The notes beneath the pieces were generated by a model. That model had not been told where the DNA came from. It did no database searches and worked only from the letters and a program-made list of their open reading frames with translations. DNA of 64,000 nt from Gilvimarinus sp. 2_MG-2023 (GTDB lineage: Bacteria > Pseudomonadota > Gammaproteobacteria > Pseudomonadales > Cellvibrionaceae), in contig NZ_JAUOQM010000048.1 of NCBI RefSeq assembly GCF_030547685.1, positions 124,001 to 188,000 on the forward strand, read 5' to 3'. The position numbers and the translations under genes are program-made. The stretch's first letter is position 1; the number at the start of each line of letters is the position of its first letter. This document shows positions 2,336-41,965 of the stretch, in pieces.

Positions 2336-4198
2336 ATGTTGCAATCCATGCGGGACAATTCCAAAGGACTTGTTGCCGGTATTTTAGTGGGCCTGTTGGT
2401 CATAGTTTTTGCGCTCTCCGGTGCTGAGGCGCTGTTTTCAAGTCGCAATCAAACGCAAGTGGCGGCGACCATCAATGGGGATGAAGTCTCTGAGACCGAT
2501 GTTGCTAGAGCCATTGAGCGGCAGCGTGCGCAGATGAGAAATCGTTTTGGTGATGCAGTGCCAGAAGACTTTCTCAGCGATGAAAACTTACGTGGCGAAG
2601 CAATGGATCGTCTGATCGAGCGCACGTTGTTGGCTCAGTTTGTCCGTGATAGTGATATGACCATCGCTCCTCAACAAATTGACAATAGATTGATTTCTGA
2701 TCCAACGTTTCAAGATGCATCTGGTCAATTTGACCCAGAAGCGTATCGAATGTTGCTCGCTCGCTCTGCTTATACCCCCACCAGTTATCGCGCAGAATTA
2801 ACCCGTGACCTATCCATTAGTCAGTTAGTTACGGGGCTTACACAATCTAATTTTGCCACCGAAGGGGAAGTGACTTATGTGGCGGAGCTAAACAATCAAC
2901 TGCGCAGTTTTGATTTCTTAACTCTGAGCGCTGAATCATTACTCGAAGAGATTGAGCTCGAAGAGCAAGCGATAAGCTCATACTATGAAAGCAACAGTCA
3001 AGATTACGCTGTGCCTGAAAAAGTGGCGGTAGAATATATTGAATTGAGTATTGCCAACTTAATGCAAGATATCGAAATCTCTGAGGAGTTGATTCGCAGT
3101 CAATACGAAGAAAACGTCGATAATTTCACGCCTACTATTGAGCGTCATGTTGCTCATATTTTAATCGAAGAGCCGACAGATGAGAAGATTCAGCAAGTTC
3201 AATCGGCGATTGATAGCGGCCGAGACTTCAGCGAAATAGCCACTGAGTTTTCTGATGATTTGGGCTCTAAAGATTTGGGTGGGGATCTCGGGATCACCAA
3301 TGCCGATGCATTCCCTGACACTTTTGAAGAAGCATTGGCTGAACTTTCTGAAGGCGAGGTGTCGGGGCCGGTAGAAACCGACAGCGGCACGCACTTTATA
3401 AAATTGATTTCCATCGATGGAGATAAAGCCGCCCCCTTTGCTGAGCAAAAAGATCAAATTGCCCAAGAGTTGCAGCGTGTTCGAGCCGAGGAGCAGTTTG
3501 TCGAACTATCAATTCGTTTGGAAGATTTATCGTACAATGCCCAAAGCTTGGAAGATGTAGGTCAAGAGCTGGAGCTGGATGTTGTTACTACAGAGCCTTT
3601 TAGTCGCGATGGCGGGGCGGGCATTGCCAGCTCTGGAGCTGTAGTGCGTGCTGCCTTCGATGAAGAAGTGCTTGAGTATGGAAATGCTAGTGAGTTGCTT
3701 GAGTTGGCTCCAGACAGAGTTGTGGTGATCAAAAAAGTCGATCACCAACCTAGTTTTGTGCAGCCGTTGGCAGAGGTTCGAGAGGAAATCGTCGCCCAGC
3801 TTAAACAAGAGCAAGCCATGGCTTTATTGTCTGAGCGTGGCAGCTCTATCGTTGAACAGCTGCGTTCAGGCTCTGATATAGAGTCTTTGGCCGAGCAAGA
3901 GGGGTTAGAGTTCCAGCAGGCAAGTTTGATACAGCGCAGTGATTTGGATCAGCCTCGTCGAGTGGTTGAATTTGCTTTCTCATTGCCACTGCCTGAGGAT
4001 GATGCGACTAAAGTGTCAGCCGGTAAAGGCTTGGCGGGCGAATATATTATTGTTCAACTTACTGACGTTGACACCCCAGAGGGTGAGTTAGACGCAGAGC
4101 AAAAAAGTGCTTTAGGGCAAGCGTTAAGCAGTATGTATGGTGCGGTTGATTTTGAGTCGATGAGCGGTTATTTACGTGAGTCGGCTGAAATCGAGTAA
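2336..4198 (+). CDS. ppiD: PpiD, membrane-anchored periplasmic folding chaperone with parvulin domain
   Basis: Inner-membrane protein near the Sec translocon that helps newly secreted proteins fold. The 620 residues begin MLQSMRDNSKG, typical of PpiD. A single transmembrane segment follows (about residues 12-30), then a SurA-like N-terminal chaperone region, a parvulin (PPIC) domain at about residues 270-360 (HVAHILIEEP through SGTHFIKLI), and a long C-terminal region. ATG 2336 is chosen because GGAG lies 6-7 bases upstream and the membrane anchor starts properly. An upstream in-frame ATG would sit inside the hupB terminator. The E. coli parvulin domain of PpiD has little isomerase activity, so a chaperone role is likelier. 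Confidence 0.93.
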   Translation: MLQSMRDNSKGLVAGILVGLLVIVFALSGAEALFSSRNQTQVAATINGDEVSETDVARAIERQRAQMRNRFGDAVPEDFLSDENLRGEAMDRLIERTLLAQFVRDSDMTIAPQQIDNRLISDPTFQDASGQFDPEAYRMLLARSAYTPTSYRAELTRDLSISQLVTGLTQSNFATEGEVTYVAELNNQLRSFDFLTLSAESLLEEIELEEQAISSYYESNSQDYAVPEKVAVEYIELSIANLMQDIEISEELIRSQYEENVDNFTPTIERHVAHILIEEPTDEKIQQVQSAIDSGRDFSEIATEFSDDLGSKDLGGDLGITNADAFPDTFEEALAELSEGEVSGPVETDSGTHFIKLISIDGDKAAPFAEQKDQIAQELQRVRAEEQFVELSIRLEDLSYNAQSLEDVGQELELDVVTTEPFSRDGGAGIASSGAVVRAAFDEEVLEYGNASELLELAPDRVVVIKKVDHQPSFVQPLAEVREEIVAQLKQEQAMALLSERGSSIVEQLRSGSDIESLAEQEGLEFQQASLIQRSDLDQPRRVVEFAFSLPLPEDDATKVSAGKGLAGEYIIVQLTDVDTPEGELDAEQKSALGQALSSMYGAVDFESMSGYLRESAEIE

Positions 4199-4218
4199 GC
4201 CATTGTAAGCATGCGATG

Positions 4219-4245
4219 AACAGCGCCGGAAGGCGCTGTTTTTTT
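4219..4245. terminator. bidirectional terminator between ppiD and the diguanylate cyclase
   Basis: AACAGCGCC (4219-4227) and GGCGCTGTT (4232-4240) form a 9-bp stem with loop GGAA, followed by T's to 4245. The minus-strand diguanylate cyclase stop codon (4244-4246) touches the T-run, so the convergent genes share this element. Confidence 0.88.
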
Positions 4246-5218
4246 ATGGGGTTTGGGGCAGTGAGTAGCTCTGGTTACGCCCATGTTCTTTACAGTAATA
4301 CAGCGCTTTGTCAGCACTTTCTAGCCATTGCTGATAACTATCGATAGTCTCGTTTAGCTCGCAGATCCCTAGGCTGACAGTTATCTTGATTTCTTGCTCA
4401 CCAAAAACTACCATTTGATTCTCTATTTGTTTGCGCAGCCTTTCAGTCAACTCCACTGCACCGGCAGTATCCGTGTTGGTCAATACAACCCCAAACTCTT
4501 CCCCTCCGTATCGTCCCGCAAGGTCTGTGTCTCGTAATTGGCTACGAAGAGTTGCACTTACCATGCGGATTACATCATCGCCCGCTATATGACCATAGGT
4601 ATCATTGACCGATTTAAAGTGATCAATATCAAACATGATTAATGACGCAGGGATTTGATAACGATCAAAGCGTTTAAACTCTTTCTCTAGGCACTGCTCC
4701 CAATAACCCCGATTATAAAGTTGGGTCAAATGATCAATTCGGCTAAGGCCCTCTAGCCGGTTATTGGCTTCAATTTGAGCCAGCTTATTCATGGCCGAAT
4801 CGGTCACATCATAGACAATCAAACAAATGTGAGACACCTGGCCATTCGTGTTCATGAGAGGAATAATTGTAGTGTTTTGATACATAAAGCGCGCGGTGCC
4901 GGTAATGGGCCGGTAATGGGGGAAGTGGAACAAATAAGGGCGCTGTTCCCAGGTTGTAAAAGTGGCGCTTTTCAATATAAAGGCAGGTTCGGCTTTGCGT
5001 CGAAACCAATCTTCGGAAAGCTCAGGGAAGACGCTAAACAGAGTTTGGTTGAGTACAATTTCGGGAGCTTTACCACTGTGGTTTTGCATAAATTGATTCC
5101 ACAGTGATATTTCATAGTTTTGATCTAACACTACTAAACCAACGTCAATATTCTGCAGTATGTCCATCAACCAATGGACATCTTTCAAGAAATGGCTTAA
5201 TTCAGTGTCTTGCGACAT
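4244..5218 (-). CDS. PAS-GGDEF diguanylate cyclase
   Basis: Predicted cytoplasmic enzyme that makes c-di-GMP from two GTP. An N-terminal PAS-like sensor (about residues 15-145, IDVGLVVLDQNYEISLWN) is followed by a GGDEF domain (about 155-320). The active-site motif is GGEEF at residues 238-242. The product-inhibition site RxxD is present as RDTD at 229-232, five residues before it, so feedback control by c-di-GMP is expected. There is no transmembrane segment or signal peptide. The gene lies 16 bases downstream of a cheC-like gene on the same strand, so the two are probably one operon. No clear ribosome-binding site precedes the ATG. The ligand of the PAS domain cannot be told. Confidence 0.9.
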   Translation of the reverse strand: MSQDTELSHFLKDVHWLMDILQNIDVGLVVLDQNYEISLWNQFMQNHSGKAPEIVLNQTLFSVFPELSEDWFRRKAEPAFILKSATFTTWEQRPYLFHFPHYRPITGTARFMYQNTTIIPLMNTNGQVSHICLIVYDVTDSAMNKLAQIEANNRLEGLSRIDHLTQLYNRGYWEQCLEKEFKRFDRYQIPASLIMFDIDHFKSVNDTYGHIAGDDVIRMVSATLRSQLRDTDLAGRYGGEEFGVVLTNTDTAGAVELTERLRKQIENQMVVFGEQEIKITVSLGICELNETIDSYQQWLESADKALYYCKEHGRNQSYSLPQTP

Positions 5219-5234
5219 AAGTGGGCGCTTAGAG

Positions 5235-5849
5235 TCAGTCCAAAAGGTAGTTTAATTTTTCCAATAAACCATCAATACAATTTTCACTGATCACCAGTAA
5301 CAGATCGCAGTTTACCCGGTGGTCTTCAATAGTGTAGTTGATTTCAACGACAAGTGCGTTCTTCCAGGTAACCTCGCGTTTGTTGAGCAGATCTGGTATG
5401 TCGTAATGTTCGCCCAGTAGCGTCGGAGAGCCCAAGCTAAAGTGGGTGTCCAGTTGTTGGGCCAAGCTGTGCAGACAGGCACCACCGAGTACATTGGTGG
5501 TATCCATTAGGATTTCGCTGCGATTCTCCGCGTTGTTGTCGTATTTAAGCAGCTGAGCCAGGTCCCGGTAATCGGTTCCGTTAAAAATCAACAGGGCCTC
5601 GCCGGCAATGCCGTCCCCGATAAAGCCTTGGCAAACCCCGGTTAATTGCTGCTCATGGCCGTCTAAAGCCTGCAGTGAGTTGAGCGTCATGGCGACATCG
5701 TTAGGGGTTAGAACGCTTACGTTTGGTATAGAAAGCACGACAAAGACATCGAGCAGGCGCGCGAGGCGGTCGGCGGATTGTCCCATTGCCACATTGGCTA
5801 TTTCTTGTAGGCAATCTCGCTGGTCTTCATTGAGAAGGGAGGCCGTCAT
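5235..5849 (-). CDS. cheC: CheC-family response-regulator phosphatase
   Basis: Predicted phosphatase for a CheY-type receiver domain. CheC enzymes carry the signature (S/D)-x3-E-x2-N-x22-P twice. The first copy is exact here: D12, E16, N19 and P42, within QEIANVAMG. In the second copy (EILMDTTN, then Pro 23 residues after the Asn) the spacing is kept but the catalytic Glu is Asp, so the second site may be weak. The length of 204 residues fits CheC rather than the one-site CheX. It lies directly upstream of the diguanylate cyclase. No receiver-domain gene, CheD or other chemotaxis gene is in the window, so the target is unknown. Confidence 0.85.
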   Translation of the reverse strand: MTASLLNEDQRDCLQEIANVAMGQSADRLARLLDVFVVLSIPNVSVLTPNDVAMTLNSLQALDGHEQQLTGVCQGFIGDGIAGEALLIFNGTDYRDLAQLLKYDNNAENRSEILMDTTNVLGGACLHSLAQQLDTHFSLGSPTLLGEHYDIPDLLNKREVTWKNALVVEINYTIEDHRVNCDLLLVISENCIDGLLEKLNYLLD

Positions 5850-5894
5850 TACGTTTAATCTGTGCTCTTAGTTAGTGCTGGATGGTTAATTATT

Positions 5895-5907
5895 GTTCAG
5901 TCTGAAC
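5895..5907. promoter_or_regulatory. perfect palindrome in the cheC/yejA divergent region
   Basis: GTTCAG-T-CTGAAC is a perfect 6-1-6 palindrome about 45 bases upstream of cheC, in the 258-base divergent region. It could be an operator for a dimeric regulator. The regulator is not identified and chance cannot be excluded. Confidence 0.3.
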
Positions 5908-6107
5908 TCAATTATATGTCTTTATAGTAGCACCGACTGCCACTATTGTCTGGGATCGTCATAAAAATTACCCAGGAAAGGGGTATAGGGCTTGTTTCTG
6001 AATAAAATAGTCTGATAATTGGTTGTCAGATAGGTATCGCGTGCACACATTGATGAATCTTTCCGTACAATCAAGGTCTTATTTTGGAGAGAGTGAGAGA
6101 GTTGACT

Positions 6108-35009: not shown

Positions 35010-37013
35010 TTAGGGCGACGTATTTTGAATGCGTCCGGCGGTTAAATCTAACATTACGCGATTATCTGGTTCGGCATCCATAAAACCCATCAGAAGCTGC
35101 AGCACACCGGAGATAAACTGTTGAGTCACCGGCAAGGTAACTGGCTTGTCTTCGTTTTGCACTTGATAAGCACTAACGCCTTGATATAACTGTGCAAGAG
35201 CCTTGTAAGCACTTAATCGGTTCGAGCCAATATCCTCCTGCGCCAAATCCCCACCGTTGCGCAGCATATAGAGGTCAACAAGTAGATCAAAGCCTGTAAC
35301 ATCGTTGGATAAACCATCCATTTCGGTTTTTGTTAATTCCGTAAGATATTGGTCAGTTGCCTGCCTCCAGCTGTCTTTATTTTTAAGAGTCGCTAGGTCG
35401 GTGACTATATCTTGCGTTTTTTCGGTTGTATCTAATTGTGCCAGTATGGCTAAATCATGCAGTGTGCTTTGCGTTAAAATATCAACCAGAGTCGAAGGCC
35501 ATTCGTTCGGAATAAAGCGTTCTCTAACCAGTTCTCGCAGATGTTTTTTTGTGAAATCATTGTAATTTTCGGCATTGAGTACGTCGATATTCCAAGCATT
35601 TTCCGGGCTGTTGTTAAGCAAATATTGATGTTCCCGCTGATAGTGGGGGAATAATTCGTTGAATCTGGGTACCTGTTGTAATCGGATTGTATCAACTTGC
35701 ACTCGGTTCTTAGGCAGAAGAGACACTACTTTATAAGCCGGCGGGTAAGCGGCAAGGCTGGGCGCTTGAATGTTAAACAGCGTTTTTCCATCCTGACTGC
35801 GATATACCCCAGTATCGTTCATATGCATATGGCCAGAAATATGGAAATGTAAACCAGTTTTGAGTATTCGCTCACTAGTGGCCAGTTTGGGCAGGCGCTT
35901 TAGCTGAAAGGCATCACGGCCCAATATGGATTTTATGCTGTCACCTTGCTCGTCATAAAAATCCACCATCGGAAAATGACTAAACGAAATCAGTCTTTTA
36001 CCTTGTAATTGTGCTTGTATCACTACCTGCTCAATCCATTGCAGCAGGTATTCTTTATTTTGAGCAATAGCGTTGTAACCGGCATTGCCGGAGCCGGAGA
36101 ATCCGGTCTTTAGTCCGTTTTGATTTGTTTTTGGCAGGTAGACATTGGCGTCTATGGCCAGCAACCAGAGCCCTTCGGTGGGTTCGACCAGATAGCTTGT
36201 ATCAGGCATGTCGATGCACAAATCGGGTTGTGACGCTGATGTTTTGGCACAAACACTTGAGTGGCGTTTGGCTAAGGAACCCGCTACGACGGCGGCCTCG
36301 AATTGATAGTTATCCGGTGTGTAGGCGGTAAAAGGCGTTGCCCAGTAAAGATAGCTTTTTTGTGGAAAGAAGCCATTATTTCTCATCGTATGAGTGACAC
36401 CCTGATAGCCTAAATGACGGATCTTTTCGCTGCAGATCAGTGAGTCAGTTTGTCGTCCGCTTTTATCTTGACAGCTTTTGGTGCCAGGGCTTTGAATGGA
36501 TATCTCGCTTCCATCTGTGTTGAGAAAATCGGATTTTCCGCCCGGCGTGTCATCAGGTCGAACCGGATCATGATTGCCGGGAGTGGCAAAGAACATAACG
36601 TTATGACGATCGCGGTATTCATCGAGTATGGTTGCAAGTTTATTCAAATGCACGGGCTGGCCATCATCACTAAAGTCGCCAGGTAGGCCAATATAGCGAA
36701 TGCCCGATTTGACAGCGTGATCCAATGCGGCCAAAAGGGCGAAGTAATTTTCATTAAAAAGTCGGGTGGAGTGTAGTTGTGCAGCCATGGAGCGAATGCT
36801 CGCATGTTTATGGCCGTCGTCGTTACTGATGCCTGCGAAACCCTCGTCTCTGAAATCAGCGTAAATATCATGAAAATGAATATCTGGCATAAACGCTACT
36901 TGCACGGGTCTCTGCTGGTCTGTGTTGGCCATTGCAGTTGTTTCTGCTGTTGCAGTTATTGTGAAGAGTGCAATTAATAAGCCAGCAACTAAAGTCGGAA
37001 GAGAGTTTTTCAT
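35010..37013 (-). CDS. Secreted calcineurin-like metallophosphoesterase
   Basis: Exported phosphoesterase of about 667 residues. The signal peptide is MKNSLPTLVAGLLIALFTIT with cleavage near TAETTA. All metallophosphatase motifs are present: PDIHFHD, GLPGDFSDDG, GNHDP, SHFPMVD and SGHMHMND, within about residues 45-410. A long C-terminal region has no recognised domain. The start is uncertain: an in-frame GTG at 37040 is possible and neither has a well-spaced ribosome-binding site. It lies 52 bases downstream of the FecIR-linked TonB receptor on the same strand, suggesting that it acts on the ligand that this receptor imports. Confidence 0.85.
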   Translation of the reverse strand: MKNSLPTLVAGLLIALFTITATAETTAMANTDQQRPVQVAFMPDIHFHDIYADFRDEGFAGISNDDGHKHASIRSMAAQLHSTRLFNENYFALLAALDHAVKSGIRYIGLPGDFSDDGQPVHLNKLATILDEYRDRHNVMFFATPGNHDPVRPDDTPGGKSDFLNTDGSEISIQSPGTKSCQDKSGRQTDSLICSEKIRHLGYQGVTHTMRNNGFFPQKSYLYWATPFTAYTPDNYQFEAAVVAGSLAKRHSSVCAKTSASQPDLCIDMPDTSYLVEPTEGLWLLAIDANVYLPKTNQNGLKTGFSGSGNAGYNAIAQNKEYLLQWIEQVVIQAQLQGKRLISFSHFPMVDFYDEQGDSIKSILGRDAFQLKRLPKLATSERILKTGLHFHISGHMHMNDTGVYRSQDGKTLFNIQAPSLAAYPPAYKVVSLLPKNRVQVDTIRLQQVPRFNELFPHYQREHQYLLNNSPENAWNIDVLNAENYNDFTKKHLRELVRERFIPNEWPSTLVDILTQSTLHDLAILAQLDTTEKTQDIVTDLATLKNKDSWRQATDQYLTELTKTEMDGLSNDVTGFDLLVDLYMLRNGGDLAQEDIGSNRLSAYKALAQLYQGVSAYQVQNEDKPVTLPVTQQFISGVLQLLMGFMDAEPDNRVMLDLTAGRIQNTSP

Positions 37014-37065
37014 AAGGTAGGTCTTGGAAGAAAAAAGCACGTCCTTGTGCCAAGAGATGCCATGC

Positions 37066-40000
37066 TTAAAAGTTAGCGCGTACGCCTAATGTGTAACGGC
37101 TGCCGGAGACTTCATACATAGTGGGGAAGCGTGGATCCATGGTGTAACCTTGGGTCGCTTCTTCGGTAATGTTAATGCCTTCTAAAGAGAGCTTAATATT
37201 TTCTGTGATATAGAAACCGAGAGAGAGGTCTAGCTGGCCGTAGCTGTCGCGATACACGGGATACATATCGCGCTCAATACGCTCTACATATTTGTCCTTG
37301 TAGTTATAGAGAATACGCGCATTGAAACGATCGTTTTCATAATAAGCTACTAGATTATAAGTGTTTTCGGCGAGCCCTTCCGGTGCTGTGGGAATGTTAA
37401 GGTCTGATTCGCCCGTTAGTGAATTATCTAAAATGGTGTAGTTGGCATTAATACCAAAACCTTCTAAAGATTCACTAATTATTGTTAATGGAAATTGAGC
37501 AACTAATTCAACCCCTGATACGTCATAGGAGCCCTCAGCGTTAATCTTTTGATAGACTTCAAAGTCGTAGACGCCATCCAGAGTGCCGTTATCGTTGTAC
37601 TTGGTAACATTAGGGACTATTCCTGTCAGCGATTCGCGCACTACGCCTTCGATTTCTTTTTCAAAATATGAGGCCGAGAGAATACCGCCGCTTTCCAGGT
37701 AATATTCAACCCCTAGCTCCCACTGATCTGCGTAGGTAGGCTGTAAGTCCGGGTTGCCATCGTAGTATTTAAACTCACTCAAGCTAACTGAGCGTTTGTA
37801 GGCGATATCGGTTAGCGCTGGGCGCATTAAAGTCTGTGACGCGGCAGCACGAAACATTAAGCTTTCGCTTAACTCTACTTTCATATTAAAGCTGGGCAGT
37901 AGGTCATCATAGCTGCCGTCTTTAGAGACAGGCTCAGACGTGTAAACGGTAGAGCCGTCGGCAGTCTGCACTTGGTGAAAACCGGAAGATAAAACGGAGG
38001 TGTCTACATATCGAAAACCGGCGTTGATTAAAGCAGGCCGCGATAGAATATCAAACTCAAAATCCGCCATGGCGTAGAGGCTAAATACTTCCTCATCCAC
38101 TTGGTAGTATTGGTCGGGGGCATAATCCACGTGGAAGCCATCGTAGCGGAATAAGTCCCGTGCATACTCATTGGATACTTGAGCCCAGCTTGGGCTATAG
38201 GATAAGTCCGGTAAATACTCGCCGCCAGGCACCAGTTCTTCTATAGGTGTTAGCTCGCTATCTTGCAGTGTGCGAACACCGCTCCAGCTAGAGTCGTCTG
38301 CCGATGGCCCTTTAACTTCTTTGTCGCCTTGATTGCGCTTTTTGCTTTTATCTGTATAGCGAACACCAAAGTGAATATCCGCCAAAGCGGGCAGGAAGTC
38401 GATGTGCATTTCACGGCTAACATCGAACTGCGCTGCGTACTTATCATCCTGTATCTCTTCCAAAGTAACATCGTAGAAGTCGAAGAGGTAACTGGAAGGG
38501 GCGTTATACATATCGATGGAGTCTGGATCGTCGCTCATGAGGGTCTGGCCCCCTTGATCGGTATAACGCGTGCGCGAAGGTGCATAAGAGGTATGTTTAA
38601 GGTTGGTTCGGTCCGAGAACTTCTCCGCTCCCGAATAGCCCAACAATCCGTCGATGGACCATAAGCCTACAGACCACTCGGAAGCAAGGCTGAATTGTTG
38701 ATAGTCGGTTTCGTTCACGTCCTCTTTGCTCAAAAATTCGTGTTGAGTCAGAGCGTAAGACGTATCAGTGAGAACGGTAATGCCGTAATCAGAGAGTGTG
38801 GTGCTGTCGTAATCGTGAATTTCAGCGAGAGAGCTTGGGCTTGAGGCGGAGTATGCGGCGGCATCATACTCATCTTCGGTTGCATCATACTTGCCGACCA
38901 GTGCATCAAAGGTCAGGGAGAAATTATTGCTTGGTTTAAATTGAATGGAGGCTGTAGCTCCCCACTTCTCCTGCTCATTTAAGTAAGCCCGGTCTCCGGC
39001 TTTGTTTAGAAATACAACACGGCCGGTTTCGTCGTCATTGAATCGGTCATTGATGACAATGCCTGTGTCGCGTTCAAGAACCGCTGCGGCTTGGTCTGAC
39101 TGGTGCTGAGAAGAGCCTGATTTTTCGAGCCAACGGGAAAGAGGGCGAAAGTCCACACCAGAGTTAGCGTCTGTTCGATTCGTTCTCTGTGAGCTAGAAA
39201 ATGACACTAAGGCACCCCAGTTGCCAACTGTATTGCTCGCTAGCAGTGAAAAATTTGGGTCAACTTCTTCTGAAATGGTGTTGTAGGCACCCTCGGCAGA
39301 AACAATAACTTTACGGCCACTGTAATCGAATGGGCGCGCAGTCTGGATTTCTACGGTTCCCGCGATTCCGCCTTCTTCATCCGCAGCGGTAGGAGATTTT
39401 TTCACTTTTACCTGCTGAATAATATCAGAGGCAAACATGTCGAATTCAACATCGCGCCCGCCACTGCCAGATGCTGTCGCCAGGTTGTTTATCGATACAT
39501 GGGTGAACTCACTGGGTAAGCTGCGAACATTAACTTTGTTGCCAAGGCCTTTGTTGCGCTCAATAGTAACGCCCGGAATGCGTTGTAGGGCCTCTGCCAG
39601 GTTTTGCTCGGGGAAGTCGGCGATGTCTGAGGCAACCACAGAGTCGGAAAAACCAATGCTGTTTCGTTTAATGTCGACGGCTTTTTCCAAGCTTTTCTGG
39701 TAGCTGCCGGTAACGATCATTTGCTCGATATGGTCGCCCGCTTCAATCTCTTGGGCTTGGGTGGCTGAATTGCTTACCATGGCGGTAAGAAATGCAATGA
39801 TGCCTGAAAGTTGCTTCTTCTTAAAATCCACTTGTCTTTCCTCGTTTGACGGTCTGCTGTTGTCGGCAGTTATGGTCAATATCCGGCTGTCGGTAATCTT
39901 AGGCTGCAACCCTGTTCCAGACAGAACCTGTGCAATAGCTTCCGGTATTGAGTAAAAACCCGATATCGAATTTGCTTTTAAACCTTTCACAAGCTCTGCC

Positions 40001-40323
40001 GAAAAAAGAACCTGAAGATTTGCTTGTTTAGCAAAAATCTGCAGTGCTTTATTGGCCGGTAATTGTTGTATGTCAAATTCAATGCGTTGCAGTTCAATGC
40101 TTTCTGGCACCCCTGATGCAGACGTTGGGGCGGAAAAGCTTTGAGCTGCGTTCGCGCTCAAAATAACGACGAGACAATACCGGCTTATTCGAATTGCGGG
40201 GTAAGCCGTCAAGTCTCGTAGTAAAGGACAAGGTAGAAGTGAAAATCTACCAGTGGATTTTTTAAAAAAGTTCGATGTTTTTTTATTTGATTGAAATTTA
40301 ATACAAAGCACGTTGATCGTCAT
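37066..40323 (-). CDS. STN-domain TonB-dependent receptor/transducer (FecA-like), with a second internal start
   Basis: Outer-membrane receptor of 1085 residues. A signal peptide (core about residues 48-65) precedes an STN signalling domain (about 80-153). Then come an odd second signal-peptide-like segment (166-190, KKKQLSGIIAFLTAMV ending ATQA), a TonB box (EQMIVTGS), the plug (EALQRIPGVTIER) and the barrel, ending in aromatic YTLGVRANF as in folded barrels. It overlaps fecR by 26 bases and is followed by the phosphoesterase. STN receptors pass ligand binding through FecR to a FecI sigma factor. The ligand is unknown. The plug and barrel style is that of Cellvibrio/Alteromonas carbohydrate or organic-ligand receptors. 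Confidence 0.92.
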   Translation of the reverse strand: MTINVLCIKFQSNKKTSNFFKKSTGRFSLLPCPLLRDLTAYPAIRISRYCLVVILSANAAQSFSAPTSASGVPESIELQRIEFDIQQLPANKALQIFAKQANLQVLFSAELVKGLKANSISGFYSIPEAIAQVLSGTGLQPKITDSRILTITADNSRPSNEERQVDFKKKQLSGIIAFLTAMVSNSATQAQEIEAGDHIEQMIVTGSYQKSLEKAVDIKRNSIGFSDSVVASDIADFPEQNLAEALQRIPGVTIERNKGLGNKVNVRSLPSEFTHVSINNLATASGSGGRDVEFDMFASDIIQQVKVKKSPTAADEEGGIAGTVEIQTARPFDYSGRKVIVSAEGAYNTISEEVDPNFSLLASNTVGNWGALVSFSSSQRTNRTDANSGVDFRPLSRWLEKSGSSQHQSDQAAAVLERDTGIVINDRFNDDETGRVVFLNKAGDRAYLNEQEKWGATASIQFKPSNNFSLTFDALVGKYDATEDEYDAAAYSASSPSSLAEIHDYDSTTLSDYGITVLTDTSYALTQHEFLSKEDVNETDYQQFSLASEWSVGLWSIDGLLGYSGAEKFSDRTNLKHTSYAPSRTRYTDQGGQTLMSDDPDSIDMYNAPSSYLFDFYDVTLEEIQDDKYAAQFDVSREMHIDFLPALADIHFGVRYTDKSKKRNQGDKEVKGPSADDSSWSGVRTLQDSELTPIEELVPGGEYLPDLSYSPSWAQVSNEYARDLFRYDGFHVDYAPDQYYQVDEEVFSLYAMADFEFDILSRPALINAGFRYVDTSVLSSGFHQVQTADGSTVYTSEPVSKDGSYDDLLPSFNMKVELSESLMFRAAASQTLMRPALTDIAYKRSVSLSEFKYYDGNPDLQPTYADQWELGVEYYLESGGILSASYFEKEIEGVVRESLTGIVPNVTKYNDNGTLDGVYDFEVYQKINAEGSYDVSGVELVAQFPLTIISESLEGFGINANYTILDNSLTGESDLNIPTAPEGLAENTYNLVAYYENDRFNARILYNYKDKYVERIERDMYPVYRDSYGQLDLSLGFYITENIKLSLEGINITEEATQGYTMDPRFPTMYEVSGSRYTLGVRANF
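39829..39843 (-). promoter_or_regulatory. Internal ribosome-binding site and GTG start inside the TonB receptor
   Basis: On the minus strand GAGGA (39839-39843) lies seven bases before GTG (39829-39831), codon 165 of the receptor. Translation from here would give a 921-residue receptor that begins with KKK, a hydrophobic core and an ATQA cleavage site. That is a complete signal peptide without the STN domain. Confidence 0.55.
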
Positions 40324-41341
40324 TTTTCTTTAACAAAACAACGTTATCCTTACTTGTTTGCGCTTCTATATTAAAGCTGAGCTGCAATGCTTGAAGCATT
40401 GAATCCGTTTCTCCTGCTTTAAAATAACCTCCGATTTTAAGCGACTTTAATGACTCGTCTGCCAATACAATTTTGACATCGGTGTAGCGTGATATTTCTT
40501 CAATGGCCTCAAGCAAGGGAGTGTCTTCAAACGAAAGCATTCCGCTGGTCCACGAAAGATTTCTTTCTATTTCTTTGCTGGTGGATGGTGATGCCTGAGG
40601 TTTTTCAAATTTCTTGAAGATCACTTCTTCGCCGGCATTCACCATAATATTATCCGCTGTATTATGGTTGTTTTTCCCGGTGGAGATTGTAGTATGGTCC
40701 GCTATGCTAACAATGCCCTCGGTAACGGTTAGCTTGGCCGTTGGTCCGGTTTTTCTAATATTAAAAGCGGTACCAACTGCGGTTACTACATTGTCTCCAA
40801 CCTGTACGGAAAAGGGGCGTTGTTTGTCTTTGGTTACGGTGAATAGGGCCTCGCCACTATGTAAAATTACCCGCCGAGCCGTTTCTGAGTAAATAACTTC
40901 AATATTTGAGTTTGTATTGAGAGATACTGTGGAGGCATCACTGAGAGAGATTTCACTAATTTCACCCACAGCCGTTTGAAATGTTTTAGGTTCTAGTTCG
41001 TCGGCTTTCTGTAGGCCCGGCCAAAGCAGCGCGGTAAATAGTACAAAAACTGCAAAAACACTTGCCGCAATCGCTTGGGGAGTTTGCCAGCCGCCTCTTT
41101 TACCTGAAGAAGGCTCACTTTCGTCGGTCTCGATGGCAACCCAATCTTTTAACTGATCGGCAAGGCCCCATATTTCAGCGAGCTCAAAAAATTCAGTTTC
41201 GTTTCTTTTGCTCTGCTTAAGCCAGTCGCTTAATTCGCGTTGTTGGGCTTGATTAAGATCGCCTTTATCTAGCTCAATCACCCAGTGAGCAGCCTCTTCC
41301 TGGACCGATATTTTGTTTTTAAATGCTTTTACTTTGCTCAT
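40298..41341 (-). CDS. fecR: FecR-type anti-sigma factor
   Basis: Inner-membrane regulator of 347 residues that holds or activates the partner ECF sigma factor according to the receptor STN domain. The N-terminal cytoplasmic DUF4880-like domain (AAHWVIELDKGDLNQAQQRELSDWL) is followed by one transmembrane segment (about residues 89-107), the periplasmic FecR domain (SLNTNSNIEVIYSETARRVI, EALFTV) and a C-terminal DUF4974-like/STN-like lobe (LEAIEEISRYTDVKI). It sits between fecI and the receptor, the usual order. Confidence 0.92.
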   Translation of the reverse strand: MSKVKAFKNKISVQEEAAHWVIELDKGDLNQAQQRELSDWLKQSKRNETEFFELAEIWGLADQLKDWVAIETDESEPSSGKRGGWQTPQAIAASVFAVFVLFTALLWPGLQKADELEPKTFQTAVGEISEISLSDASTVSLNTNSNIEVIYSETARRVILHSGEALFTVTKDKQRPFSVQVGDNVVTAVGTAFNIRKTGPTAKLTVTEGIVSIADHTTISTGKNNHNTADNIMVNAGEEVIFKKFEKPQASPSTSKEIERNLSWTSGMLSFEDTPLLEAIEEISRYTDVKIVLADESLKSLKIGGYFKAGETDSMLQALQLSFNIEAQTSKDNVVLLKKNDDQRALY

Positions 41342-41350
41342 GGGATTAAT

Positions 41351-41965
41351 CTAGCGAATGTTGTTATTTATGGTTTTAAGGGCAGGGGGGATTTTTTCTT
41401 TGAGTGCCGGCTCGAAATGCCCTAGCTGCTTCAGTGACTCTTTGCACTCAATCATCCCCTTGGCCAGGTGCTTGTCGACCGTACCAACCGAGATGTTCAG
41501 TTGTCGGGCGATATCGCTATTGGATATTCCCTCGATTTTCTTCATTATAAATATTCTTCGGCATTGCGCCGGAAGGCGGTTTATAGCATCACAAAAATGA
41601 ATGAAGCGCTGATGTTGCTCTGCTTGCTCGTCGAGTTCAATGGTGGTGGGTGTATTATGGTCGTTTATAGCAGACTCTATAGAGTCGTTTAAGCGAACAC
41701 CAGAGCGGTTTTTTTCATTAATGGCGAGGTTTCTCGCGACCTTGCATAAAAATGCTTTAGGGGCACGCACATCGCTTAGTCCGCCGCGCTCAATAACTTT
41801 CACATAGACCTCCTGAACCAGGTCGTCCACATCCTGACTATTCTTAAAAAAAGTAGAAGCATGCTGACGAATAGCTTTTACGTGGTTAAGAAACGTCTTG
41901 CTGGTGGTTTCCTGCTCCGGGTGGTGCACCTGCAGTATCGACTGGTTTCTTTCCAAATACGACAT
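41351..41965 (-). CDS. fecI: FecI-type ECF sigma factor
   Basis: RNA polymerase sigma factor of 204 residues that would transcribe the receptor operon when the STN-FecR relay is triggered. Sigma-2 is seen in FFKNSQDVDDLVQEVYVKVI and sigma-4 in LPAQCRRIFIMKKIEGISNS followed by the helix-turn-helix DIARQLNISVGTVDKHLAKG. It is the first gene of the fecI-fecR-receptor-phosphoesterase set, with 9 bases before fecR. Confidence 0.93.
   Translation of the reverse strand: MSYLERNQSILQVHHPEQETTSKTFLNHVKAIRQHASTFFKNSQDVDDLVQEVYVKVIERGGLSDVRAPKAFLCKVARNLAINEKNRSGVRLNDSIESAINDHNTPTTIELDEQAEQHQRFIHFCDAINRLPAQCRRIFIMKKIEGISNSDIARQLNISVGTVDKHLAKGMIECKESLKQLGHFEPALKEKIPPALKTINNNIR

Follow-up and report, generated by a model that had tools for sequence, protein, structure and literature searches.

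Why should the gene of a TonB-dependent signalling receptor carry a second ribosome-binding site, start codon and signal peptide after its signalling domain? The question is raised by an open reading frame (ORF) on the minus strand of a 64,000-nucleotide stretch of Gilvimarinus sp. 2_MG-2023 (contig NZ_JAUOQM010000048.1, positions 124,001 to 188,000), referred to here as the window. The initial annotation had proposed that this one gene encodes two receptors, a full-length transducer that signals through FecR and a nested receptor, lacking the STN domain, that only imports. This proposal is retained here at a probability of about 70%, on evidence that is strong but indirect: the internal start looks like an older one, it appears to be under synonymous constraint, and, of the 59 STN-receptors with a second signal peptide, 55 show a start with a Shine-Dalgarno (SD) sequence ahead of it. 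The features concerned are the following.

37066–40323, minus strand: full-length ORF of a TonB-dependent transducer, with first signal peptide (SP1), STN domain, second signal peptide (SP2), plug and barrel; start at ATG 40323 or TTG 40212
39865–40017, minus strand: STN signalling domain, residues 103–153 (PF07660, E-value 2.7e-10)
39839–39843, minus strand: internal SD sequence GAGGA, kept in 5/5 orthologues, in the top window of synonymous conservation
39829–39831, minus strand: internal GTG start, codon 165, of the predicted nested receptor, 7 nucleotides after GAGGA
39754–39831, minus strand: SP2, residues 165–190, cleavage expected after ATQA; located where STN-less orthologues have their signal peptide
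39706–39729, minus strand: TonB box region IEQMIVTG, residues 199–206, placed by inspection and alignment
37066–39831, minus strand: predicted nested ORF, read from the sequence as an ordinary STN-less TonB-dependent receptor of 921 amino acids before processing (TIGR01782 match)

The Internal Start and the Second Signal Peptide

Two observations made in the initial annotation were found again in the sequence of the ORF. Codon 165 is GTG, with GAGGA exactly 7 nucleotides upstream, and it is followed by a full signal peptide, VDFKKKQLSGIIAFLTAMVSNSATQA, and then QE, ahead of IEQMIVTG, which we take to be the TonB box. By inspection, SP2 presents a lysine-rich n-region, a hydrophobic core and an A-x-A-like c-region (ATQA, then QE), and it lies between the STN domain and the TonB box. 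Among the 11 in-frame ATG, GTG and TTG codons between the beginning of the open frame and the TonB box region, codon 165 displayed the strongest anti-SD pairing, with a score of -5.9, followed by -3.3 for the next. GTG 39831, GAGGA and SP2 are unlikely to have arisen together by chance.

Three further properties of SP2 were determined and were not used as evidence. As a possible membrane anchor, SP2 was evaluated by its 19-residue summed hydrophobicity; the sum was negative in 0/58 SP2 segments and in 0/58 SP1 segments, so that the measure separates nothing. On the same scale, SP2 was slightly less hydrophobic than SP1 (medians of 4.1 and 3.2, respectively) and resembled the native signal peptides of STN-less orthologues (4.3, n = 34). 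The AlphaFold model was poor (mean pLDDT, the model's confidence score, of 56.5), with a well-folded STN domain (blocks of 63–87) and a low-confidence helix for the SP2 stretch.

Conservation of the Internal Start

The receptor was found at E ≤ 1e-150 in 16 of the 144 genomes of the family that were searched. Five of these 16 orthologues carry STN (those of the window's own genome, G001, G156, G160 and G029), the closest being that of the same-genus genome G001 (76%), and 11 do not. GAGGA-N7-GTG was kept at the same spacing in 5/5 STN-bearing forms, with anti-SD scores of -5.9 to -7.3, and in each form outscored every other in-frame start ahead of the TonB box region. Since G029 and G160 are near-identical, four lineages entered the statistics. 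Only 2 of 35 invariant valine columns were GTG throughout, codon 165 among them, and only 2 of 38 invariant glutamate columns were GAG throughout, the glutamate codon of the SD sequence among them. In sliding windows of 8, 10, 13 and 16 codons, the stretch of SD sequence and GTG ranked first of 1012–1026 for same-codon conservation, with values of 0.83–0.94 against a gene mean of 0.44. The internal start thus appears to be under synonymous constraint, and what is looked for in a dual-start gene, a conserved in-frame internal start with an SD sequence, was present in 5/5 orthologues and in 55/59 members of the wider class described below.

Conservation sets in a few codons ahead of the SD sequence (windows from residues 152–161), as it might if some other DNA element, such as a promoter or operator, occupied the linker and the SD-like match were incidental. 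Such elements do occur inside coding sequence, and the present frame contains a promoter-like element ahead of SP1. However, the form and spacing of the conserved element are those of the start of several STN-less orthologues, the element is followed by a signal peptide, and the class-wide enrichment concerns a start plus an SD sequence. This explanation is regarded as improbable.

At the protein level, the basic residues, the hydrophobic core and the alanine at -1 of SP2 were kept in all five STN forms, whereas the residues past the site diverge. Between the window and G001, 22/26 residues of SP2 were conserved, compared with 8/26 of SP1, whose alignment is loose; for the other pairs of distinct lineages the values were 11–14 and 1–6 of 26, respectively. 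The A-x-A type site kept in 5/5 orthologues would also suit a different origin of the short form, in which signal peptidase cuts after SP2, or a periplasmic protease cuts at the linker, to release a free STN domain and an STN-less receptor. For Pseudomonas aeruginosa FoxA, PMC11637429 proposes a cut between STN and receptor, with the free STN protecting FoxR, and attributes it to CtpA, not to signal peptidase. Cleavage neither needs nor explains a conserved SD sequence, a conserved start codon and synonymous constraint. Moreover, an internal segment that reaches signal peptidase from the periplasmic side would, by the topology of Sec export, be wrongly oriented. Cleavage is the main rival of two starts; we consider it unlikely as a replacement for them, and it could act together with a nested start.

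Origin of the Second Signal Peptide

The STN profile was without a match at 78 of 80 named loci of orthologues, STN being found only in Gilvimarinus algae (L095) and in Novosphingobium (L082), the linker of the latter lacking a second signal peptide by eye. The STN-less forms occur in Cellvibrio, Marinimicrobium, Microbulbifer, Alteromonadales and others, with receptor identities to the window gene of 57–75% over the best segment (80 named loci) and 67–75% (family genomes). Their own signal peptide sits at the place of SP2. When their starts were assigned by us from SD sequence and signal peptide, GAGGA-N7-GTG was obtained for 4 of the 11 STN-less family orthologues, all of one genus (L110, L111, L112 and L115), and the same spacing for two more STN-less orthologues, with GAGGT-N7-TTG (L109) and GAGGG-N7-TTG (L006); L113 starts with GAGGA-N8-ATG. 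As some STN-less orthologues start alike at the place of SP2, the internal GTG and its SD sequence match the start of an ordinary receptor gene that is now read through by a longer frame, and the internal start has the look of an older one that belonged to the receptor itself.

The initial annotation had also supposed that an STN-only protein and an ordinary receptor were fused. The receptor half of this idea is in keeping with the STN-less form being the common one (78/80), whereas no separate STN-only gene was found beside an intact receptor in the regions examined. In the 11 regions with short STN frames (L230–L240), an STN-only gene paired with an intact receptor occurred in none: five frames belonged to small non-receptor, TonB-like proteins by eye (L231, L234, L238, L239 and L240), one reaches the end of its contig (L232), two were STN-SP2 frames ending early (L236 and L237), one region held receptors without SP2 (L230), and two STN frames had no receptor ORF behind them (L233 and L235). 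Two candidates for a split gene, with a stop inside the initial match, proved to be an STN-less receptor (L242) and an intact nested gene (L244). Among the STN-SP2 profile matches listed for the order-level and class-level genomes, none had a stop inside.

Recurrence of the Nested Design

A total of 390 order-level genomes and 369 class-level genomes were scanned with an STN-SP2 profile whose query contained neither SD sequence nor start codon, and a Pfam STN search covering 95 and 94 genomes contributed further STN-receptors. A simple rule divided the 138 deduplicated STN-receptor ORFs into 63 with and 75 without SP2, and removal of four false calls by eye left 59 with SP2. These come from 15 families and 23 genera, include the window gene and its four orthologues, and comprise several receptor kinds as judged by eye from the plug sequences. 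An in-frame start lies in the 16 codons before SP2 in all 59 (ATG in 45, GTG in 14). Within the 16 codons ahead of the SP2 core, 55/59 genes had an ATG or GTG with an anti-SD score of -5 or lower, a combination that occurred in 8.35% of 6033 control windows drawn from these genes; for ATG alone with an SD sequence, the values were 42/59 and 1.9%. Each of the 23 genera had at least one gene with a nested start and SD sequence. The nested SD sequences were stronger than those of synonymous recodings of the six upstream codons (median of -7.3 against about -4.7, p = 3.6e-10, the observed start being the best of those in its window), and stronger than the best upstream SD sequence of the same gene in 46/59 (weaker in 12, with one tie). 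Since fecR lies directly upstream of 54/59 SP2 genes, signalling has probably been retained.

The view of the initial annotation that a second signal peptide is unexpected in FecA-type receptors agrees with the 75 of 138 ORFs without SP2, plus the four removed by eye; as a general expectation it gives way before a recurrent class, which made up 11/51 STN-receptors in a rough Pfam-based sample of the order. That share is only rough because of how the sample was picked, by hand from the matches listed, mostly as frames of about 780 residues or more in order to avoid secretins, with a few shorter ones, and with five of the 51 already known from the STN-SP2 profile search. Among ten loci of the class sample that were checked, only one receptor belonged to the set, and it was without SP2.

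The window's own genome holds a second nested STN-receptor (L241, positions 2631–5972, contig C41), with an ATG after AAGAGGATTGACTCC before its second signal peptide; no fecR was found directly upstream of it. Near-identical SP2 and start regions, for example MNSKKKILAATVGFFMGAGG, stand before the plug in same-genome paralogues (L293, L294 and L295; in a second genome L291, L296, L297 and L302), which suggests that the STN-SP2 head has spread among paralogous receptors.

Several results weigh against two starts in one gene. Five of the 11 STN-less family orthologues fall outside the N7 pattern (L106, L107, L108, L113 and L114). In the receptor tree, two changes are required for the five STN genes, with an STN-less Teredinibacter gene placed among them, so that a single fusion is no more than a possible origin. 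The composition of the linker (E, K and G) alone yields SD-like DNA, the mean for the synonymous null being -4.7, and no more than 36% of individual genes beat 90% of their recodings; composition therefore explains part of the SD signal. A start with an SD sequence was found by chance in the linker of 27/75 STN-receptors without SP2, and fecR is also upstream of 64/79 of the receptors without SP2. In four SP2 genes, no strong SD sequence stands within the 16 codons; three of them have an ATG with a weak one (L123, L133 and L164), and the fourth has a strong ATG 30 codons upstream (L138). Four of the 59 are short frames, two reaching the end of the available DNA (L141 and L232) and two stopping after 230 and 295 residues (L236 and L237, respectively). 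Finally, the alignment behind the search that supplied most of the 59 included SP2, and the 59 are phylogenetically non-independent; for these reasons they are no measure of the frequency of the class.

A last point against comes from one genus (g308) with three apparent orthologues, of which L146 keeps start, SD sequence and SP2, and L151 and L153 show the joint decay of all three, so the nested form can be lost and is dispensable there. Such decay would be expected if SP2 and its start signal were a leftover of fusion that serves as a linker in a single protein, as would the location of SP2 at the place of the native signal peptide of STN-less orthologues and its conservation, which, outside the window–G001 pair, is no better (11–14/26 residues) than that of STN. 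A mere leftover does not account for a synonymous conservation that peaks on SD sequence and start, and the joint presence of start, SD sequence and SP2 in 55/59 genes of 15 families is beyond what a decaying remnant would lead one to expect. SP2 was also more conserved than SP1 in every pair of distinct lineages, with the loose SP1 alignment. A fossil is accordingly thought rather unlikely, a little more so than cleavage, and translation from two starts remains the preferred explanation.

Start of the Long Form

The start of the long form is uncertain between ATG 40323 and TTG 40212, which corrects the initial annotation. ATG 40323 overlaps fecR (the overlap of the receptor and fecR ORFs is 26 nucleotides) and has almost no SD sequence (score of 0.3). 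TTG 40212 has a score of 1.5 and aligns with an ATG in the closest relative, G001. In G029, no ATG, GTG or TTG was found in the 45 codons ahead of the SP1 core. The two features of this region are as follows.

40129–40212, minus strand: SP1 region, residues 38–65 if the start is TTG 40212, from alignment with the ATG start of the G001 orthologue; signal-like by inspection
40227–40252, minus strand: candidate sigma-dependent promoter, conserved TGGYAGATT-N13-TGTC, at the same place in 5/5 STN-bearing orthologues

The motif TGGYAGATT-N13-TGTC, located between fecR and SP1, may be a sigma-dependent promoter of the receptor gene. Residues 14–35 form the next distinct region of high same-codon conservation (widths of 13 and 16 codons). 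With up to one mismatch, the motif had 14 matches in its own genome (2 exact) and the reversed control had 5, which points to weak specificity.

The Receptor Locus

The genes around the receptor lie on its own strand, with fecI, fecR and the receptor in an operon-like row followed by a metallophosphoesterase.

41351–41965, minus strand: gene of an ECF (extracytoplasmic function) sigma factor of the FecI type (Sigma70_r2, r4_2; NCBIfam sigma70-ECF)
40298–41341, minus strand: fecR anti-sigma regulator gene with FecR and FecR_C domains (PF04773, E-value 6.6e-21; PF16344, E-value 9.5e-9)
35010–37040, minus strand: calcineurin-like phosphoesterase, conserved neighbour of the receptor (PF00149)

The receptor scored above the cut-offs of PF07660, PF07715 and PF00593, with STN N-terminal to plug (residues 226–322) and barrel in one protein, and belongs to TIGR01782 (TonB-Xanth-Caul) with 570.7 bits against a cut-off of 310 over residues 200–1085. 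With ECF sigma and FecR genes upstream on the same strand, it has the make-up of a transducer of the FecA type, whose STN would bind the C-terminal domain of FecR and control sigma activity; it departs from the single signal peptide before STN that is usual, as in FecA, without being a formal criterion, and is called a variant of this type because SP2 is present besides SP1.

A homologue of the phosphoesterase was found in the flanks of the receptor at 37 of the 80 named loci, downstream in 35 and divergent in two (L039 and L092), a neighbour that hints at a phosphorylated substrate. Another fecI-fecR set, mostly with its own receptor, often adjoins the STN-less orthologues; it is divergent in Alteromonadales (L032–L038, L040, L041 and L049) and downstream and co-directional in Caulobacterales (L062–L065, L067, L070, L071, L073, L086, L093 and L099).

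Proposed Model

The anatomy of the sequence, the match of SP2 and its start to the starts of STN-less orthologues, their conservation and their recurrence are observations from which we infer the production of both proteins, their ratio, the behaviour of SP2 in the long form and the benefit to the cell. A module of fecI, fecR, SP1 and STN would have been fused in frame to the front of an ordinary receptor gene, whose own ribosome-binding site, start codon and signal peptide were left in place. Translation from the upstream start would give SP1-STN-SP2-receptor, a transducer signalling to FecR through STN, whereas translation from the internal GTG would give SP2-receptor, which SP2 would export and which would mature into an ordinary STN-less importer. 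SP2 would behave as a signal peptide when N-terminal and pass as a linker when internal, and we propose that it has been kept for this reason, being functional in the first position and tolerated in the second. The weak SD sequences upstream (0.3 for ATG 40323 and 1.5 for TTG 40212) and the stronger nested one suggest the importer as the majority product, unless coupling to fecR raises the long form. A plausible benefit is that an induced cell could make many importers without flooding FecR with STN domains.

Extended to the class, the model would describe a group of Gammaproteobacterial signalling receptors as nested genes, each providing an STN transducer and, from its own ribosome-binding site, start and signal peptide, an STN-less importer, the ratio set by the two ribosome sites allowing cells to raise import without STN shutting off their own sigma factor. 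We lean only slightly towards this wider statement.

Comparison with Known Systems

No description of the nested-receptor class was found in a full-text literature search, the coverage of which was without most subscription journals and preprints. In a term search of two reviews of signalling receptors, 'start codon' did not occur, and the passages returned name one signal peptide for FecA, which according to passages of PMC11658791 comprises residues 1–33. Dual-start genes in bacteria and FecA-type transducers are already known; the recurrence of a receptor nested in a transducer gene, with a signal peptide of its own, is regarded as a new variation on these. Models of cell-surface signalling assume one receptor form per gene, except for the recent proposal of FoxA cleavage. 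If the model holds, annotation that chooses one start per gene would miss one of two proteins. Signalling and import could be uncoupled by silent changes in a handful of codons, which would make the role of the STN-less form directly testable.

The window gene shares with the FecA, FoxA and FpvA-type transducers an ECF sigma factor, a FecR with FecR_C, a TonB-dependent receptor with N-terminal STN and their operon-like row, and differs from them in having a second full signal peptide, with its own SD sequence and start, between STN and the TonB box. The STN-less TIGR01782 orthologues have the same receptor, with a signal peptide where the window gene has SP2; many also share the phosphoesterase neighbour, and some the start signal. 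Unlike the window gene, they have no STN and no fused fecI-fecR module. Bacterial pairs of N-terminal proteoforms, as presented in passages of PMC11005335, likewise have two in-frame starts giving a long and a short protein. The short forms of Salmonella PagC and OmpX, which arise by alternative initiation, lack the signal peptide (PMC11005335), whereas both forms predicted here carry one and the internal start resembles that of an older gene.

The closest parallel is the FoxA cleavage model, for which the following is drawn from Wettstadt et al. 2024 (PMC11637429). In a prc mutant, two FoxA bands were found with sizes fitting forms with and without the signalling domain, and cleavage was proposed. 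Overproduced STN domains block signalling in Pseudomonas by protecting the anti-sigma factor, a block with which a nested importer without STN would be in keeping. Both systems would have STN-bearing and STN-less receptor forms, and in both the amount of STN would control the stability of the anti-sigma factor. The STN-less form that the paper suggests for Pseudomonas is attributed there to proteolysis, whereas here the nested start would provide such a second form genetically, an internal translation start supplying it directly.

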